Assembly: GCA_023382265.1 (NCBI GenBank)
Contig: JAMCPX010000015.1
Location: forward strand, 64,748 to 97,502
DNA length: 32,755 nucleotides
From: Deltaproteobacteria bacterium
GTDB taxonomy: Bacteria; JAMCPX01
Direction of reading: 5' to 3'
The position numbers and the translations under genes are program-made. Positions 7,189 to 16,522 of the stretch are shown one piece after another. The notes beneath the pieces were generated by a model that did not search any database, was not told the DNA's origin, and worked only from the letters and a program-made list of their open reading frames with translations. Numbering within the stretch: the stretch's first letter is position 1; each line of letters starts with the position of its first letter.

Positions 7189-7208
7189 TCCCCAATGCAA
7201 TGAAATTA

Positions 7209-7234
7209 CAGGGGCTTAAAAATTTAAGCCCCTG
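7209..7234. terminator. Strong hairpin between convergent ilvC and anti-sigma genes
   Basis: A perfect 12-bp inverted repeat, CAGGGGCTTAAA at 7209-7220 and its complement at 7223-7234, lies 20 bases after the ilvC stop. There is no clean T-run downstream, but its position between convergent genes suggests a bidirectional terminator. Confidence 0.6.
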
Positions 7235-7359
7235 TGCCTTGTTTAAAACAAAAAATCATCTAATTTAAGGTGGATCACAGGGTTGATCTTCTTTGGAGGA
7301 GAATCATACTCTTGATGAGAATGAACAGATTCTCTTATTGCATTTTTTGGGTTAAACAA

Positions 7360-7959
7360 TCATGAAACAGGGCTTGATGAAGCTTTTGCTCTTACGATAA
7401 GGATTGCATTTACCTGTCCAAAACCATCATCCGTAAACATCCTTGCATGAGGATCGGATATAATCTTTTGTCCATTAACCTGATACACATACTGATAAAT
7501 ACCGGGTTTCAGCTTCAAGGTTACAATGAATAACCCTTTACCCGCTTTTTTCAGCATTATGGGCTTTTCACCCCATTTATTGAATGTCCCAAGGACAGCA
7601 ACTGTTTTTGCTTTTGGTAGTACTACATTTAGTGTTACCCTGATCATATCGTTTCTTCCATGAACATAAGTGTAAATACCTGTACCGGCAAGTACCGTTA
7701 TTAAAATAATAGCCGCGATCTTTAATAATTGTCTTACAATACTGCTTGATGATCCCTGTTCTATTGCGGCCATAACTTTATCCGTAAGACCTTCAGGGGC
7801 TTTTAATGTTGAATTTTGATCACGCATAAGCTGCAGGATGCCGAGCATCTTTTCATAATTTTCGCGCAATACGCTGTCGGTGCTCAGTGCTTTTTCAAAA
7901 GCCTCTTTCTCTGTACCTTTTAGTTCACCGTCTATATAAAGGTGTATACGGTTATCCAT
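7360..7959 (-). CDS. Membrane anti-sigma factor with AMPK/CBM48-like sensor domain
   Basis: The 199-residue protein has three parts. Residues 1-70 are a soluble helical region beginning MDNRIHLYIDGELKGTEKEA, like anti-sigma N-termini but without the HxxxCxxC zinc motif. One membrane segment follows at about 76-98 (LLKIAAIILITVLAGTGIYT). The C-terminal domain, about 105-190, has the AMPK/CBM48 E-set pattern VAVLGTFNKWGE, GLFIVTLKLKPGIYQYVYQV, SDPHARMFTDDGFGQVN. It overlaps the upstream sigma-factor gene by eight bases, the usual arrangement for a sigma/anti-sigma pair. Inference: the N-terminus holds the sigma factor in the cytoplasm and the E-set domain sits in the periplasm, perhaps sensing a glycan. 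The ligand is unknown. Confidence 0.72.
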   Translation of the reverse strand: MDNRIHLYIDGELKGTEKEAFEKALSTDSVLRENYEKMLGILQLMRDQNSTLKAPEGLTDKVMAAIEQGSSSSIVRQLLKIAAIILITVLAGTGIYTYVHGRNDMIRVTLNVVLPKAKTVAVLGTFNKWGEKPIMLKKAGKGLFIVTLKLKPGIYQYVYQVNGQKIISDPHARMFTDDGFGQVNAILIVRAKASSSPVS

Positions 7960-8548
7960 CCTTTTCCTCTTTGTATAAAATCTTTTTTAGCATATCTCTT
8001 GCCCTGAATACCCTTACTTTAACAGTCTCTGAACTTGTATTAGTAATATCGGAAATCTCATCATAAGACAATAATTCAACATGTCTTAAAAGAAAAGCCT
8101 CTTTATAAATGCCGGGCAAGTTATTTATAGCACTTTTCAATTGTGCGCCGAGTTCATTATTCATAACCATCTCTTCAGGCCCTCTCATATCATTAGACGA
8201 TTCATAAGGATTATTATTACTTATACTGTCGAATTCTAAAGTGGTGAACCGTTTTTTATATTTAAGCTCATCTTTTACTCTATTTACAGCTATTGTTATT
8301 AGCCATGTAGAAAATTTAGATCGTCCCTCAAAACTGTTAATGGCCTTCCATGCCTTGACGAATGTCTCCTGTGTTATCTCATCTGCTATGTCCGGATTTT
8401 TTGTATAGCGGGATATAAGATTATAGATCATATCTTTGTATCTTTCCACTAACACATGGTAAAATTTTTTATCACCCGCCTTACAAAGGCTTATCAATTC
8501 TTCATCGGTCTTTGATGAATCCTGTTTAAGGGTTTTCTCAATGTTCAT
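7952..8548 (-). CDS. ECF-family RNA polymerase sigma factor (RpoE-like)
   Basis: The 198-residue product has the two ECF domains. Sigma-2 (about residues 20-90) includes YKDMIYNLISRYTKNPDIAD and EITQETFVKAWKAINSFEGR followed by SKFSTWLITIAVN. Sigma-4 (about 135-190) includes INNLPGIYKEAFLLRHVELL and SYDEISDITNTSSETVKVRV followed by FRARDMLKKIL, the -35-binding helix-turn-helix. There is no sigma-3, as expected. It overlaps the phosphatase gene upstream by four bases (ATGA) and the anti-sigma gene downstream by eight, so the three are translationally linked. The regulon is not deducible from the window. Confidence 0.93.
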   Translation of the reverse strand: MNIEKTLKQDSSKTDEELISLCKAGDKKFYHVLVERYKDMIYNLISRYTKNPDIADEITQETFVKAWKAINSFEGRSKFSTWLITIAVNRVKDELKYKKRFTTLEFDSISNNNPYESSNDMRGPEEMVMNNELGAQLKSAINNLPGIYKEAFLLRHVELLSYDEISDITNTSSETVKVRVFRARDMLKKILYKEEKDG

Positions 8549-9267
8549 ATTTTTATATTCCCCAGAAGTTTTGCCGGTGTCTCGAGTAAAAGCCTTATTT
8601 GTTCTTCTTCTGGAATAAATGTACTAAGCCTTTTGAATGCCTTCCTCAAAAGCTCTTTAATATGTATGGAATTATGCGTATCCGTTGCAATAATATCAAT
8701 CATATTTTTCTCTAATAAGTATCTTGCTGTTTTCATAACGTCCAATCCATATAATCCTATGAGGCTGCCAAGGTTCATTTGTATAATGAAGCCTGCATCC
8801 TTTAACATGGATACCTTTTCAGGCTCGTATATAATGCTCATGTATCTTTCTGCATGTGCAATTATACATTTTAATCCCGTTTCATGGAGTTTTGTTACGT
8901 GATTTATTATATCACCAACAAAAGGAAATTCAACAAGGTATACCCCAGATTTACCCAAGGGGATAAAGTAATCATCATAGTTTTCAATGTCCGCAGACAT
9001 GTCGAAATAGTTTTCAGCGCCTAAAAAAAGTTCATAGTTAATACCTTTATCTTGCAGACATTTTGAAAGCTCATTTAGCCTTGTTTGTGCCTTTAAGTGC
9101 AGATCGCTTTGATCCCTGCCGGGCATGTTGTGTGGCGTTGCATAAGATGTTGAAAAGCCCATACTTATAAGGGCATTGATCATTTCTAAGGATTCATCTG
9201 CCGATGATGCGCCGTCATCAATATCAGAAAGGATGTGTGAGTGAATATCGATGTACCCACTACTCAT
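8545..9267 (-). CDS. PHP-domain protein-tyrosine phosphatase (CpsB/YwqE-like)
   Basis: The 240-residue product has the metal-binding motifs of the PHP family in order: YIDIHSHIL (His9, His11), DIDDG (Asp17), TPHN (His46), GAEN (Glu85), IAHAERY (His138), TDTHN (Asp196, His198). The EFP and QMNLGS motifs are typical of the CpsB/CapC/YwqE group, manganese-dependent phosphatases that dephosphorylate bacterial tyrosine kinases controlling capsule and exopolysaccharide synthesis. No kinase or polysaccharide gene is adjacent. Instead it lies 64 bases after purD and overlaps a sigma-factor gene by four bases. Family is clear; the substrate is inferred. Confidence 0.88.
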   Translation of the reverse strand: MSSGYIDIHSHILSDIDDGASSADESLEMINALISMGFSTSYATPHNMPGRDQSDLHLKAQTRLNELSKCLQDKGINYELFLGAENYFDMSADIENYDDYFIPLGKSGVYLVEFPFVGDIINHVTKLHETGLKCIIAHAERYMSIIYEPEKVSMLKDAGFIIQMNLGSLIGLYGLDVMKTARYLLEKNMIDIIATDTHNSIHIKELLRKAFKRLSTFIPEEEQIRLLLETPAKLLGNIKI

Positions 9268-9331
9268 AAAAAATATTAGCCGGTAATGAAGACATTCACT
9301 TGATGATTACTAAATATCAAACCTGTGTATT

Positions 9332-10582
9332 TCATAAACCTATATCCTTTCTGTAATTCGCGCCTTCAAACACTATATTGCCAATGGATCTGTATGCCTT
9401 TTCCCTTGCTGATTCATAATCGGTACCTATACCCGTGATAGCAAGCACTCTTCCACCTGTTGTTATTATAGAACCTTTTTCTTTTTTTGTTCCGGCATGA
9501 AAAATAAAAGTATCCTTTTTTACTGCGTCTCTCAGCCCATTTATTATCTTACCTGTTTCCGGATGTTCAGGATAGTTTTTAGAAGCCATCACAACACACA
9601 CAGATACTTCTTCTTTTGTTTTTATTGTTTCAGTAAATGTTTTGCCTTTTGCACTATCAACGAGTATACTTGAAAGATCGCTGATTATTCTCGGTATGAT
9701 TGCCTGTGTTTCAGGATCTCCGAATCTTGCATTGAACTCAAGGACATACGGCTCGTTATCAACGATCATTAATCCGGTGTAGATTACGCCCTTATAAACT
9801 ATACTTTCTTGTTTAAACGCATCCATAAGAGGGGTAATGATTTTATCAATCACCTTTTTTTCCATTGCGGGTGTTATTTTGTCGGACGGTGAAATAGAGC
9901 CCATGCCGCCGGTATTCGGTCCTTTATCCATATCGTTTAATCTCTTATAATCTCTTGCACTACCTAATTTAACAAAACCTTTTCCGTTTGATATGACAAA
10001 ATAACTTGATTCAACCCCATTTAAAAACTCTTCTACAAGTATTTTTTTCCCGGCATCGCCGAAAATTCGCTGTTCCATCATCGCTTTTACTACAGCAATT
10101 GCTTCTTCTCTTGTATTAACAATAGAAACGCCTTTGCCCGCAGCAAGTCCGTCGGCTTTTATCACAGCAGGGTAAGATATCGTTTTTACATAATCTATAG
10201 CTTCATTGGAGTTATCAAACATTTCAAATCCTGGTTGCGGTATATGGTAATTGTGCATTATTTGTCTTGCAAAAAACTTGGAGGACTCTATCATGGCGGC
10301 CTGTTTTGTAGGTCCAAAAATCGTTAAATCGTTTTCATTGAATGCATCAACAATACCAAGAGATAAAGATATCTCAGGCCCGACGATTGTTAAGCTAATA
10401 TGCTGCTCCTTTGCAAAATTTATAAGTCCGTTGATATCATCATGATTTATCTGTACACAGGTGGCAAGTTCATCGATACCTGCGTTACCAGGTGCACAGT
10501 AAATATTTTTGATACCATCCTGCTTTAATTTGTGGACTATAGCGTGTTCTCTTGCCCCGGAACCTACAACGAGAATATTCAT
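9332..10582 (-). CDS. purD: Phosphoribosylamine-glycine ligase (GARS)
   Basis: This ATP-grasp enzyme (416 residues, usual about 420-430) joins glycine to 5-phosphoribosylamine, the second step of purine synthesis. It begins MNILVVGSGAREHAI, the conserved N-terminal nucleotide-fold motif. GPEISLSLGIVDAF and FGPTKQAAMIESSKFFAR follow. ATP-grasp elements include KADGLAAGKGVSI and VEEFLNGVESS, then the GARS signature NTGGMGSISPSDK, and FNARFGDPETQAI for metal binding. A GAGGTAATT Shine-Dalgarno precedes the ATG. It follows purH by 59 bases and is probably co-transcribed with it. Confidence 0.97.
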   Translation of the reverse strand: MNILVVGSGAREHAIVHKLKQDGIKNIYCAPGNAGIDELATCVQINHDDINGLINFAKEQHISLTIVGPEISLSLGIVDAFNENDLTIFGPTKQAAMIESSKFFARQIMHNYHIPQPGFEMFDNSNEAIDYVKTISYPAVIKADGLAAGKGVSIVNTREEAIAVVKAMMEQRIFGDAGKKILVEEFLNGVESSYFVISNGKGFVKLGSARDYKRLNDMDKGPNTGGMGSISPSDKITPAMEKKVIDKIITPLMDAFKQESIVYKGVIYTGLMIVDNEPYVLEFNARFGDPETQAIIPRIISDLSSILVDSAKGKTFTETIKTKEEVSVCVVMASKNYPEHPETGKIINGLRDAVKKDTFIFHAGTKKEKGSIITTGGRVLAITGIGTDYESAREKAYRSIGNIVFEGANYRKDIGL

Positions 10583-10641: not shown

Positions 10642-12180
10642 TTAATGTTTAAAGTGCCTTATGCCTGTAAATATCATGGCAATACCCGCTTCATCAGCTG
10701 CCCTTATTACCTCTTCATCTCTTATAGAACCACCCGGCTGAATGATTGCTGTAATACCCCCATTCGCAAGTACATTTAAGCCGTCAGAAAATGGAAAATA
10801 CGCATCGGATGCCGCAACAGCACCTTTTGTACTGATATTTGATTTCATCAGGGCAATTTTTGCAGAGTCAACCCTGCTCATCTGTCCGGCTCCAACACCT
10901 ATAAGCTGTTCGGATTTTGCTATAATGATTGTATTGCTTTTTGTATGCTTGCATATCTTCATTGCAAAGTCCATGTCTCTTAATTCATCTTTTGTGGGTT
11001 CCCTTTTCGTAACAACCCTTGCATTTCTAGTATCGGAAGATATATCATCTTTTGTCTGTATGAGCGTGCCAAAGGCTGTTTGCCGAAGTTCCATCTTAGT
11101 CCTGTCTATCAGATTAGAGGAGTATACTTTTATAAGCCTGAGATTTTTCTTCTTTGACAGTATTTCTATCGACTGCTTTGAAAATGATGGGGCAACGATA
11201 ACCTCGTAAAATGTATCGGCTATGAGTTTAGCAGTATCTTCATCAAACTCCCTGTTTAACCCGATTATACCTCCATAACTTGATGCCGGATCTGTTTTGT
11301 ACGCAATCTCGTAAGCCTTTGAAACTGTAGAGCCGATAGCAGCACCGCAGGGATTTGTATGCTTTATAATTATGCATGCGGGTTTATCAAATTCATGAGA
11401 AAGTGCATAGGCGCCATCCATGTCCAGTATGTTATTGTAAGAAAGCTCTTTACCTCCCAGCTGCTCAAATTTCACAGGCTCAAGGCTGTCATAATCAACG
11501 ACCGTATAAAGTCCTGCTTTTTGATGTGGATTTTCACCATACCTCATGGATTGAACCCTTTGTAAAGTAAGATGCAAGTGTTCTATATTTTCCTTTTCCA
11601 TTTTTTGATTGAGCCAGTTTGCGATAAAACTATCGTATGATGCCGTGTGATTAAAAGCCTTTGTGGCAAGCCTGAGTCTATCCTGTTCTGTAATGTCATC
11701 CTTCCTGATACGTTCAATAAGCCATTGATAATCTTCTGGATCGACTATGACGATTACATCCTTAAAATTTTTTGCCGCTGCACGAATCATTGATGGCCCG
11801 CCTATATCTATCATCTCAATAACCTCATCAAAAGAAGCGTTTTCTTTTTTAGTTGTTTCTTTAAATGGATACAAATTTACGATCACCATATCTATAAGGC
11901 TGATAGAATGCTCTTTAATGGATTTCATATGTGCATCATTTTTTCTTATTGCAAGTATGCCGCCGTGTATCATAGGATGAAGTGTTTTAACCCTGCCATC
12001 AAGCATTTCAGGAAATCCCGTATATTCTGAAACATCCGTAACAGGTATATTTTTATCTTTTAGAAATTTTGAAGTTCCGCCCGTGGACAATATCTCTATA
12101 CCTTTTTCTTTTAATACCTTGCTAAGCTCCTCCAAACCTTTTTTGTTTGATACGCTTACAATAGCCTTTTTTGAAGACAT
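10642..12180 (-). CDS. purH: Bifunctional AICAR formyltransferase/IMP cyclohydrolase
   Basis: PurH (512 residues, normal length) catalyses the last two steps to IMP. The N-terminal MGS-like cyclohydrolase domain (about 1-140) has KAIVSVSNKKGLEELSKVL, STGGTSKFL, VKTLHPMIHGGIL and DIGGPSMIRAAAKN. The C-terminal formyltransferase domain has the catalytic Lys-His in IIKHTNPCGAAIG, SSYGGIIGLNREFD, and SDAYFPFSDGLNVLANGGIT followed by IIQPGGSIRDEEVI. The ATG follows AGGAAGGAG. It is the first gene of the minus-strand run purH-purD-phosphatase-sigma-anti-sigma. Confidence 0.97.
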   Translation of the reverse strand: MSSKKAIVSVSNKKGLEELSKVLKEKGIEILSTGGTSKFLKDKNIPVTDVSEYTGFPEMLDGRVKTLHPMIHGGILAIRKNDAHMKSIKEHSISLIDMVIVNLYPFKETTKKENASFDEVIEMIDIGGPSMIRAAAKNFKDVIVIVDPEDYQWLIERIRKDDITEQDRLRLATKAFNHTASYDSFIANWLNQKMEKENIEHLHLTLQRVQSMRYGENPHQKAGLYTVVDYDSLEPVKFEQLGGKELSYNNILDMDGAYALSHEFDKPACIIIKHTNPCGAAIGSTVSKAYEIAYKTDPASSYGGIIGLNREFDEDTAKLIADTFYEVIVAPSFSKQSIEILSKKKNLRLIKVYSSNLIDRTKMELRQTAFGTLIQTKDDISSDTRNARVVTKREPTKDELRDMDFAMKICKHTKSNTIIIAKSEQLIGVGAGQMSRVDSAKIALMKSNISTKGAVAASDAYFPFSDGLNVLANGGITAIIQPGGSIRDEEVIRAADEAGIAMIFTGIRHFKH

Positions 12181-13240: not shown

Positions 13241-14296
13241 TTACACCATAGGCCCAAAACACGCGACCGGCACATGAAAACTATTAATGATGTTCCCATT
13301 ATCAACAAGGATAAAAATGTTTTTATCAGTACTGTACGTATTGGTTTCATTGCCCACCCATACCGTATCATTCAATGGTGATATTGCTATATAGGTAATA
13401 CATCTCAGGTTCTTGAAAGTTAATTGCTTGATTAGACTACCGTAGGGATCAAGCACATCTATCTTGTTGTTGCTTCCGATCCATACATTCTCTGTTTTGG
13501 GAGATACAGCCATTGTGGATACATAGATATCAAGATTTTTATGAAATTTGACAGCATCATTCGGCGACAACGCAAGTACGGTTGTTGTAGCAGGGTTCCC
13601 CATCCATATATCATTTGTGATCGGATTTACGACTATCCATTTTTCGTTTGTACCACAACCTATAATATATGGACTAAAAGATTCTAAAATGTTTACAGGA
13701 TAAGGTTCGTATACAAGTCCTGTAAATGAGTATCCTGACAAATATCCGGGTGACCATGCGCATACAGTACCGTTGATAGGCGAGATTGCGATCTTCACTA
13801 CGTTAAAAATCCATCCGCTATACGATGTAGGATTTCCGGGCACCGTAAAGGACGTTAAAGTTTGGCCGCTTACATTTAAAGCCTCCAGCATGGTATTACT
13901 AGTGCTGCTTAATCCGCCGGCCCAACCTATATCCGCAGATGGTGAAACCTTTACAGAGGTTGACTCATAAAAATCTGTAGTTGTTTGTGTTACAAAATTA
14001 TTCTGTGAGTTAGATATCGTTAAAATAGAAAGGTACCCGTAAAAATCGGAAGTGACTTCCCATATATCGTTATTGTTCTTAGAAATGTCTATCATGTCTG
14101 AAAACGTCCCCTCTGGATTTAAAGCCCCCCCATTAAACTCATTAATAAATATTATATTGCCCTGCGGATCGATCGCTAATAATTGGTTGAAGCCTAATAA
14201 ATAAGCAGTACCGCCAGTGGAAAAAACGATTGAATGTGGTCCACAGTAACTAGGCCCTTCATCCAGATGGCCATAATGAAACATACAAATACCCAT
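13241..14296 (-). CDS. Exported beta-propeller-like protein, probably frameshifted near its N-terminus
   Basis: The 351-residue frame is a run of short beta-rich repeats with phrases such as VKISPSA-like VKVSPSADIGWAGG, VKIAISPINGTVCAWSPG, MAVSPKTENVWIGSNNKIDV and YIAISPLNDTVWVGNE, typical of NHL/YVTN-type propellers. I do not recognise a specific family. The frame's own first ATG (14296) has no ribosome site and no signal peptide. Twenty-nine bases upstream, in another frame, an ATG at 14325 with GGAGG nine bases before it encodes a signal-like start. The simplest reading is one secreted protein starting at 14325 with a frameshift (mutation or sequence error) between about 14296 and 14240. 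It ends the cluster of three propeller genes. Confidence 0.6.
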   Translation of the reverse strand: MGICMFHYGHLDEGPSYCGPHSIVFSTGGTAYLLGFNQLLAIDPQGNIIFINEFNGGALNPEGTFSDMIDISKNNNDIWEVTSDFYGYLSILTISNSQNNFVTQTTTDFYESTSVKVSPSADIGWAGGLSSTSNTMLEALNVSGQTLTSFTVPGNPTSYSGWIFNVVKIAISPINGTVCAWSPGYLSGYSFTGLVYEPYPVNILESFSPYIIGCGTNEKWIVVNPITNDIWMGNPATTTVLALSPNDAVKFHKNLDIYVSTMAVSPKTENVWIGSNNKIDVLDPYGSLIKQLTFKNLRCITYIAISPLNDTVWVGNETNTYSTDKNIFILVDNGNIINSFHVPVACFGPMV

Positions 14297-14325
14297 AGAA
14301 AACTGTGCTTAGTGCCGCTTTGCAT
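14194..14325 (-). pseudogene. Signal-peptide start of the propeller gene, in a shifted frame
   Basis: An ATG at 14325 with GGAGG at 14339-14335 opens a 43-codon frame that reads MQSGTKHSFLWVFVCFIMAI before losing sense and stopping at 14194. The hydrophobic stretch is what an exported propeller protein should begin with, while the downstream propeller frame lacks one. I read this as the detached 5' end of the gene at 13241-14296. Confidence 0.5.
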
Positions 14326-14393
14326 ATTTCGCTACCTCCAAGAAGATAGTAACTGCCAGCAATAGGACCCACGAGGCCTGCAGGATGTTGTAA

Positions 14394-15497
14394 TTACCAG
14401 TTTCCGCCGCCAATCCACTGCGGGCCCTTGTAAGGCCGATACTGGGAACCTTGTGCAATGCCAAGAAGCTCTGTCACGGTGTTGCTACCAGCGTTAATCA
14501 CCCAGCCGTTTCCGTGTGCATCTATGACCATGCCAACCGGGGCAAGCCCTACATCATATGTTCTGACGATGCCCTTGTCTGCGGTTAACGCGTTAACCTT
14601 GTCGTTGGTACTGTCGACCACCCATACGGTTCCCGAGAAGTCCACTGCCATATCGCACGGACATGTTCCCATGGTATAGGTTGCGATTGGCGTACCGCCA
14701 GGCGCCATCTCCATGACATCATGGTCCCCCTGTATCCAAAGGTTTCCCGACGGGTCTATAGCAACATGGTCAGGTTCCGCGTTCGTGCCGTACGTGCCTG
14801 AAGTGATCCCGCCTGAGCCTATCCCTGTAACCGTGTTGTCTCCATAGTCCACGACCCATGCATTGCCTTTGCTGTCGATTGCTATCTCAGTTGGAGTTAC
14901 ACCGACACCAAATGTGCCCAGGGATGTACCCGTAGGACTCAGGACACTCACGGTGTTATCTCCGGTGTTTGATACCCAGATATCGCCCCTTGCATCTATC
15001 ACAAGATCAACAGGATTGACGCCCATAGTATACGTACCGAGAAGGCCACCGTTCGAATTCAATTCGGTCACCGTGTCAGTTCCATTAGCTATCCACTCGT
15101 TACCAGCCGCATCTATGGCAATACCAAGAGGGTCAAAGCCAGCATTGTAGTCCCCTATGGTACTTCCCGAAAAGCTTAGCTCTTTGATAGAACTATTTTG
15201 AACGCTTGTTACCCACACATCGCCTTGTGCATCGATTGCAAGGTTAGAAGATGATGGATCAACAGGATAAGTGCCGATAACGCCCTGTGAATCGTTTAAT
15301 TTTGTAACAGTATTATCCTTGTAATTAAGGATCCACACATTGCCCGAAGAATCCGCTGCAATTTTAAAGGGGAAATTACCTACAGAAAAGGTCCTGACGT
15401 TTTGTGCATTACTGGACGTGTGGCTGGCCGGACAGCCTGTCAATATGAACAAGGCTATGATAAACAGGGGTAACAGCTTGAGCATGTAACTTTTCAT
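14394..15497 (-). CDS. Lipoprotein with Vgb/NHL-type beta-propeller repeats
   Basis: The 367-residue protein begins with a lipoprotein signal peptide ending FILTGC, with the lipidated Cys at residue 22. The rest is about seven tandem repeats of roughly 41 residues with the pattern P-x-x-(I/V)-A-I-D-x-x-G-N-x-W-V-x-N-x-x-x-N-T-V-T-E-L, the signature of streptogramin-lyase-like (Vgb) and NHL propellers. Such lipoproteins usually mediate binding; no catalytic residues of Vgb lyase can be assigned with confidence. Pro rather than Asp follows the Cys, compatible with outer-membrane sorting. AGGAGG lies seven bases before the ATG. It follows the other lipoprotein gene by 20 bases and is probably co-transcribed. 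Confidence 0.78.
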   Translation of the reverse strand: MKSYMLKLLPLFIIALFILTGCPASHTSSNAQNVRTFSVGNFPFKIAADSSGNVWILNYKDNTVTKLNDSQGVIGTYPVDPSSSNLAIDAQGDVWVTSVQNSSIKELSFSGSTIGDYNAGFDPLGIAIDAAGNEWIANGTDTVTELNSNGGLLGTYTMGVNPVDLVIDARGDIWVSNTGDNTVSVLSPTGTSLGTFGVGVTPTEIAIDSKGNAWVVDYGDNTVTGIGSGGITSGTYGTNAEPDHVAIDPSGNLWIQGDHDVMEMAPGGTPIATYTMGTCPCDMAVDFSGTVWVVDSTNDKVNALTADKGIVRTYDVGLAPVGMVIDAHGNGWVINAGSNTVTELLGIAQGSQYRPYKGPQWIGGGNW

Positions 15498-15517
15498 GAG
15501 TGCCTCCTATAAAAACT

Positions 15518-16522
15518 TTATGGGTATATCACCCGCGATGGTGTAACGTCGCCGTTAATTGTGCTTGCATTATCAAACACGAGAATACTCCCGGGTTCTT
15601 TGATACCTTGATGGGTTATATAGAGTTGATCGGATGTTGAATCAACCCAAAAAGGTCCCCCTAATCCCCCTAATACTTGAGTTGCAGTAATCTTACGAGT
15701 AGGAACTACGTTCCCATTTGCTATAGTCGCATCTGTAATTACAAAAACACCAGCGCTGACATAACCAGATGTCACATAAAGCTGATTAGATAGAGAATCT
15801 AACCAAATCCAGCATGGTAAACCGTAAAAATCTGTTGAGCTAATACTGCGTGCAGGAGCTACGTTTCCATTCGCCGTACTTGCTTGGGTAAATACAAGAA
15901 TACTGGTGTTGGAGTAACCAGACGCTACATAAAGCTGATCAGAATTAGAGTCTAACCATAAGCTTGTAGGATAATTTAATTCAGTTGCCGCCCCAGAAAT
16001 GACACGAGCTGGAGTTACATCACCACTCATTGTGCTTGCGCTGGTAAATACGAGAATACTATTATTAGATTCTCCAACATATAGTTGATCAGAGTTAGAA
16101 TCCAGCCATAAATCTTTAGGGCCATTTATTGATGTTCCAGAGATGACACGAGCTGGGATTATATTACCGTTTATTGTGCTTGCATTAGTGAATACATAGA
16201 TCTCATTAGTATATTGAGAAGCAATAAACAATTGATTCGATGCCTTATCCAGCCACAAATTCCAAAGCCCCCAGTAAGATGTCGATGGAGGTTTTATTTG
16301 TAAAGATATTATACGAGCTGGAGTTACATGACCATTTGCTGTGCTTGCATCATTAAACACAAGGATGTTATTTCCCTTGAGCACATAAAGTTCGTTTGCC
16401 CCCGCATCATACCATAGACTTATTATAAAAGGAGAAGGCTTGTATTCATACGTAGACGGACATCCATAAAATAAGCCCACAACAATAAATAGCAAAAGCA
16501 GGTATATTTTATTGTTTTTCAT
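15518..16522 (-). CDS. Lipoprotein with repeated LYV...ILVF propeller-like units
   Basis: The 334-residue protein begins MKNNKIYLLLLFIVVGLFYG followed by the lipobox Cys at residue 21. About six repeats of 45-55 residues follow: LWLDSNSDQLYV, then ILVFxxASTxNGNVTPARVI. The repeat is characteristic of hypothetical exported proteins and probably folds as a beta-propeller; its function is unknown to me. The start overlaps the preceding small gene by 14 bases, and the next lipoprotein follows after 20 bases. Repeat units are diverged at codon level rather than recent duplications. A structural or surface-binding role is inference. Confidence 0.72.
   Translation of the reverse strand: MKNNKIYLLLLFIVVGLFYGCPSTYEYKPSPFIISLWYDAGANELYVLKGNNILVFNDASTANGHVTPARIISLQIKPPSTSYWGLWNLWLDKASNQLFIASQYTNEIYVFTNASTINGNIIPARVISGTSINGPKDLWLDSNSDQLYVGESNNSILVFTSASTMSGDVTPARVISGAATELNYPTSLWLDSNSDQLYVASGYSNTSILVFTQASTANGNVAPARSISSTDFYGLPCWIWLDSLSNQLYVTSGYVSAGVFVITDATIANGNVVPTRKITATQVLGGLGGPFWVDSTSDQLYITHQGIKEPGSILVFDNASTINGDVTPSRVIYP

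Follow-up and report, generated by a model that had tools for sequence, protein, structure and literature searches.

A phosphatase, ECF sigma factor and anti-sigma factor gene trio as the probable end of a polysaccharide-export operon, and the wider module of its regulator pair

Why should the gene of a protein tyrosine phosphatase overlap that of an ECF sigma factor and, through it, that of a membrane anti-sigma factor with a carbohydrate-binding-like domain? We addressed this question in a 32,755-nucleotide stretch of a deltaproteobacterial genome (G000:C15:64748-97502, hereafter the window). The three open reading frames were confirmed, all on the minus strand. They code for a PHP-type protein tyrosine phosphatase of the CpsB/CapC (YwqE) family (9267..8545, 240 aa, PF19567), an ECF sigma factor with sigma2 and sigma4 domains (8548..7952, 198 aa; PF04542 and PF08281) and a membrane anti-sigma factor (7959..7360, 199 aa). 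The last consists of a helical N-terminal domain (residues 1-70), a transmembrane (TM) helix (residues 78-96) and an AMPK/CBM48-like E-set domain (residues ~108-192). An earlier note on this DNA had described the genes, without naming a strand, as overlapping by 4 and 8 bases and lying behind purH-purD, and the sequence bears this out. The phosphatase stop and sigma start codons overlap by 4 bases (8545..8548, minus strand, ATGA), and the sigma and anti-sigma genes by 8 (7952..7959, minus strand, ATGGATAA). Upstream on the same strand are the conserved neighbors purD (9332..10582) and purH (10642..12180), with a gap of 64 bp between purD and the phosphatase gene (9268..9331) at the site where wza and wzc are found in relatives. 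At the other end, a 13-bp perfect inverted repeat (7207..7236) lies between ilvC and the anti-sigma gene, which converge on it, and is probably a bidirectional terminator closing the operon. Co-transcription of the trio is likely.

The phosphatase matches the CpsB_CapC profile PF19567 with an E value of 2.7e-45 (155 bits vs a cut-off of 27), and phmmer aligned it with YwqE (3qy6, 9e-19) and CpsB (2wjd, 6e-18), which identifies it as a member of the CpsB/CapC PHP family with predicted tyrosine phosphatase activity. The residues of its metal site (D7, H9, H11, H46, E85, E113, H138, R141, D196 and H198) are invariant among 8 orthologs, and their trinuclear pattern (DxHxH, H, E, E, HxxR, DxH) aligns with those of YwqE and CpsB. 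Proximity of a kinase gene is usual in this family, yet it is no requirement for membership. A cognate BY-kinase gene adjoins the phosphatase gene in relatives of two genera (g2 and g3) and is absent from its side in the window's genome, so that a functional Wzc-Wzb pair is less likely there. In that genome, the one BY-kinase found to carry a tyrosine tail is a paralog on contig C53 (RGSYYYRNYYTKGYYGK).

The family of the window's genome, f1, comprises nine genomes in four genera (g1 to g4), and the next nearest genomes compared share only the domain rank with it. The order phosphatase-sigma-anti-sigma is kept in all five g3 genomes at 48-58% protein identity to the window (sigma 52-58%, anti-sigma 51-54%, phosphatase 48-53%), so it is not due to chance. 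In three of them (G002, G004 and G008) a 12-bp gap separates the phosphatase and sigma genes. Wherever g3 contigs are long enough (L035, L036 and L037), the trio closes a longer series, purH-purD-wza-wzc-phosphatase-sigma-anti-sigma; conservation of the neighbors, which had been proposed as a check, is thus found behind purH-purD as well. The wza product is an outer-membrane protein with Poly_export (4e-19) and SLBB domains, and that of wzc combines Wzz, GNVR and a BY-kinase with Walker motifs and a tyrosine-rich tail (GHYYYYYHYDKYYH). The same two genes come after purD in G001 (g2), whose contig ends at the phosphatase gene, and in G005, of genus g4.

Whole-genome searches showed that wza and wzc orthologs are absent from the window's genome and from G003, where only paralogs of ~33% identity were found. 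In the window's genome these belong to a second polysaccharide export locus (G000:C53:5082-7900; L115), which has its own Wza-like and Wzc-like proteins, the latter with a BY-kinase and a tyrosine tail, and is present in nearly all relatives too. A displaced wza-wzc copy elsewhere in the window's genome was thereby ruled out, within its 96% completeness, and no coding remnant of either gene was recognized in the 64-bp gap. In the window an ATGA overlaps the purD stop, and relatives show the same overlap where wza starts. Its reading as a trace of a former wza is suggestive only, the purD C terminus (Leu TTA, stop TGA) being sufficient to produce it. In G003 the phosphatase gene lies directly beside MerR and metallo-hydrolase genes, which flank the operon in g3, and lacks the sigma/anti-sigma pair; genus g4 has the phosphatase without the pair. 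The branching order of the four genera was not resolved in a purD tree, which therefore does not decide between loss of wza-wzc and their later gain; we infer loss in place in g1 as the simpler reading. The link of the trio to polysaccharide is thus supported by the gene orders of relatives, not by the window itself. Of the proposed tie to a polysaccharide kinase, the part that stands is the BY-kinase gene wzc in the relatives' operon, but the cognate kinase is gone from the window's genome.

The sigma factor was readily assigned (Sigma70_r2 PF04542, 2.2e-21; Sigma70_r4_2 PF08281, 3.9e-14; sigma70-ECF TIGR02937, 109.6 bits vs a cut-off of 42.9) and has no further sigma domains. Its orthologs lie directly upstream of the anti-sigma gene in the five g3 relatives. 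We searched for an ECF-like promoter motif, as suggested earlier, upstream of the phosphatase, purH and E-set genes and of 26 sigma genes, and nothing shared rose above shuffled sequences. Nor was an ECF-type autoregulatory promoter found in the wzc-phosphatase gaps of relatives.

The identity of the anti-sigma factor derives mainly from its constant position directly after the sigma gene and from homologs of the same plan, some of which carry zinc-motif (HxxxCxxC-like) N-terminal domains. Its own N-terminal domain scores below cut-off with zf-HC2 (18.1 bits vs 22.2) and RseA_N (15.3 vs 24), and an NCBIfam anti-sigma model matched the protein with an E value of 1.4e-7 but at 31.8 bits, under the cut-off of 100. 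The protein has no Cys, and the zinc-binding HxxxCxxC motif was not found in it; this motif is missing in ~44% of class I anti-sigma domains (PMC7406223). The placement of the sensor domain outside the membrane agrees with our predictions: a single TM segment lies between the N-terminal domain and the E-set domain, consistently in the six orthologs. The E-set domain is predicted to be periplasmic, an orientation deduced from the N-terminal domain having to be cytoplasmic, as the charges flanking the TM segment are not decisive alone. A single-sequence AlphaFold model, of too low confidence to be relied on (pLDDT 37), gave helices followed by strands.

To follow the regulator pair beyond f1, we searched 389 genomes with a profile (A2) of six f1 anti-sigmas. 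E-set matches were obtained in 118 genomes, many of them within other kinds of proteins. We inspected the neighborhoods of 19 loci outside f1, nearly all with a match that covered the N-terminal part as well as the E-set domain. An ECF sigma gene lay directly upstream in 18 of the 19, and no locus had a phosphatase gene of the PHP type. The genes downstream code for mutually related signal-peptide proteins of ~200-330 aa with the motif KxxEGxxKxV, and in several loci a short E-set lipoprotein gene is inserted between the anti-sigma and secreted-protein genes. No Pfam or NCBIfam model matched this secreted family above cut-off. The matches of its profile in the PDB (a focal adhesion kinase linker and de novo designs) were judged to be chance helical matches.

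A second profile (A5), made from 11 of the secreted proteins, all from other phyla, was run on the same 389 genomes. It recovered held-out members at E-set anti-sigma loci (L155, 2e-31; L150, 5e-21; L161, 8e-21) and identified 24 places in 20 genomes, or 23 places in 19 genomes and 15 families when the window's genome is left out. At these 23 places an E-set anti-sigma gene always adjoins and a recognized sigma gene is present in 22, indicating that the secreted family is nearly confined to the module. Both regulator genes were found at each of the 12 places outside the profile-building set. The regulator pair thus appears to be part of a widespread sigma/E-set anti-sigma/secreted-protein module, which occurs in other phyla in 15 families or more and is apparently undescribed. 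We found no paper in the open literature that joins E-set domains of the isoamylase/glycogen-binding type with ECF anti-sigmas, and the large ECF classification may list the architecture. With no PHP gene at the loci of other phyla and one f1 genus having the phosphatase without the pair, phosphatase and regulator are, as judged from gene content, separable. The proposal that the trio forms one circuit is thereby weakened: in the loci of other phyla the pair occurs without the phosphatase and nearly always with the secreted protein.

The window resembles the module in that its sigma gene is directly upstream of the E-set anti-sigma gene. No secreted-protein gene follows the latter; the genome's one homolog is on a different contig (C33:27200-27964), where A5 has its one match in this genome (C33:27356-27964, E 6.5e-19). 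This gene adjoins that of a 122-aa E-set lipoprotein, and upstream is a gene for a Wzy_C O-antigen polymerase/ligase with TPRs. In G004, G005 and G006, the lipoprotein and secreted-protein genes are divergent from those of two glycosyltransferases and a Bac_transf priming transferase. Within f1, both halves of the split module are found beside polysaccharide genes. A strongly conserved sigma70-like promoter, TTGCAA-17-TATA(A/C)A, precedes the E-set lipoprotein genes in three genomes of two genera (L178, L179 and L180). Not every g3 genome that retains the sigma/anti-sigma pair has the partner genes: G002 (99% complete) has the pair but no secreted partner, so the pair can work without these partners or uses others. 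We also observed that in G000:C33:27200-28264 (L002; L040 7198-8379) the lipoprotein and secreted-protein genes are followed by those of a conserved 414-aa secreted protein of no assigned family and an M6-type peptidase.

We favor, with a probability of roughly 60%, the view that the trio makes up the 3' portion of an operon for polysaccharide export whose wza and wzc are lacking here, with a phosphatase that would act on a Wzc-type tail and an anti-sigma E-set domain that would report the state of the envelope or polymer. Gene order, protein families, topology, conservation, the wza-wzc genes of relatives and the cross-phylum association of pair and secreted protein were read from the sequences; from them we infer a phosphatase substrate, a signal, a release mechanism, a regulon and a partner still working with this pair. 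The phosphatase would remove phosphate from the tyrosine tail of a Wzc-type BY-kinase; in the window's genome this target, if there is one at all, could only be the kinase encoded at the second export locus, on a different contig. The anti-sigma factor would hold the sigma factor inactive at the membrane, and its periplasmic E-set domain, probably with the secreted helical partner and the E-set lipoprotein encoded elsewhere in the genome beside polysaccharide genes, would monitor the condition of the envelope or of a surface polymer. Upon the signal the sigma factor would be released and its target genes transcribed. The absence of the partner genes from some g3 genomes, the sigma70-like lipoprotein promoter, the failure to find an ECF-like motif and the below-cut-off scores of the anti-sigma domain count against this explanation.

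The earlier note had gone further, to a glycan-sensing circuit in which the E-set domain binds polysaccharide and signals to the sigma factor while the phosphatase relays the same status to a kinase. The domain (residues 108-192) does exceed the cut-offs of AMPK1_CBM (PF16561, 1.3e-11, 45 bits vs 26.8) and CBM_48 (PF02922, 4.2e-5, 24.2 bits vs 22.4), its best solved relative is the pullulanase domain 5ot1, and polysaccharide genes are adjacent in relatives. We aligned it with AMPK at the sugar contacts W100, K126, W133, L146 and T148, and at N150, which we take to be a sixth. All six f1 anti-sigmas have W, V, I, F, Q and N there, so that one Trp and one Asn are retained. The first five AMPK residues touch sugar, and mutations there markedly lower glycogen binding (PMC2642990); two of them, the Lys and the second Trp, are Val and Ile in the six orthologs. 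Outside f1, the second stacking Trp is kept in 11 of the 19 anti-sigmas. With most contact residues replaced, glycan binding through the classical site is unlikely for the f1 domain, which could bind another sugar on another surface, or a protein. It is best described as a relative of the CBM48/AMPK domain whose status as a glycan binder is doubtful, and we regard the glycan-sensing circuit as improbable.

The same cross-phylum loci, where the pair never adjoins a PHP gene and nearly always a secreted-protein gene, together with the g4 genomes that have the phosphatase without the pair, are what one would expect of a general envelope-stress pair whose E-set domain contacts a secreted partner or a protease and whose proximity to the phosphatase is incidental. 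An incidental neighbor would hardly remain so close over ~50% divergence, coupled by 4 bases in the window and 12 bp away in G002, G004 and G008, and this reading is rather unlikely. Still less credible is that the phosphatase is a remnant, kept after the departure of wzc only through its translational coupling to sigma: wza-wzc orthologs are indeed missing from the genome, but the reading frame and all active-site motifs are intact, and the genome does encode another, tyrosine-tailed BY-kinase. Our preferred reading, the end of an export operon, may be extended tentatively, at somewhat less than even odds. The widespread module of ECF sigma factor, E-set anti-sigma, secreted KxxEGxxKxV protein and often an E-set lipoprotein would have been split here, the pair being captured by the Wza-Wzc-phosphatase operon and the other parts residing beside polymerase or glycosyltransferase genes, to form a transcriptional checkpoint on polysaccharide export.

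Parts of this arrangement recall known systems. The phosphatase shares its Pfam family and metal-site motifs with the CpsB/Wzb-type PHP proteins that work with BY-kinases (Streptococcus CpsB-CpsCD and Bacillus YwqE-YwqCD), and the window's relatives share the wza-wzc-phosphatase order of such systems, whereas the window's phosphatase is devoid of a cognate kinase and coupled to a sigma factor. We know of no described CpsB locus with such a coupling. As in RpoE-RseA and SigW-RsiW, an ECF sigma gene adjoins that of a single-pass membrane anti-sigma, whose N-terminal domain in the window is weakly similar to RseA_N, RsiW and zf-HC2; however, the periplasmic part of the window type is an E-set, and the usual gene partner is the KxxEGxxKxV protein rather than RseB. 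SigI-RsgI of Clostridium thermocellum embodies the shared idea of an anti-sigma with an external domain of carbohydrate-binding type, but SigI is not an ECF factor, the CBMs of RsgI are from other families and its signal is plant polysaccharide, whereas the window's E-set lacks conserved sugar residues. The glycogen-binding domain of the AMPK beta subunit belongs to the same Pfam domain, with FNxW and the C-terminal Asn kept in the anti-sigma; the window's domain differs in being periplasmic, fused to an anti-sigma and replaced at its other ligand residues.

ECF sigma factors are a main route of bacterial envelope sensing. The three-part module with its unnamed secreted family, in at least 15 families, offers a concrete gene set for testing a new envelope signal. 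As to what that signal may be, the window's lineage gives a hint: there or in relatives, each half of the split module neighbors genes for the export or assembly of polysaccharide.

Two other observations were made. In G001 (C73; L181 7136-8741), another ECF sigma/zinc-motif anti-sigma pair is followed by the gene of a periplasmic protein resembling CnrX/ZraP and by an efflux operon of the TolC/MacAB-like type. In the window itself, three adjacent genes on the minus strand (13241-16522) code for NHL/YVTN-like repeat proteins, two of them lipoprotein-like, and the first has a copy, 68% identical to it, on contig C53 of the same genome, near the export locus.
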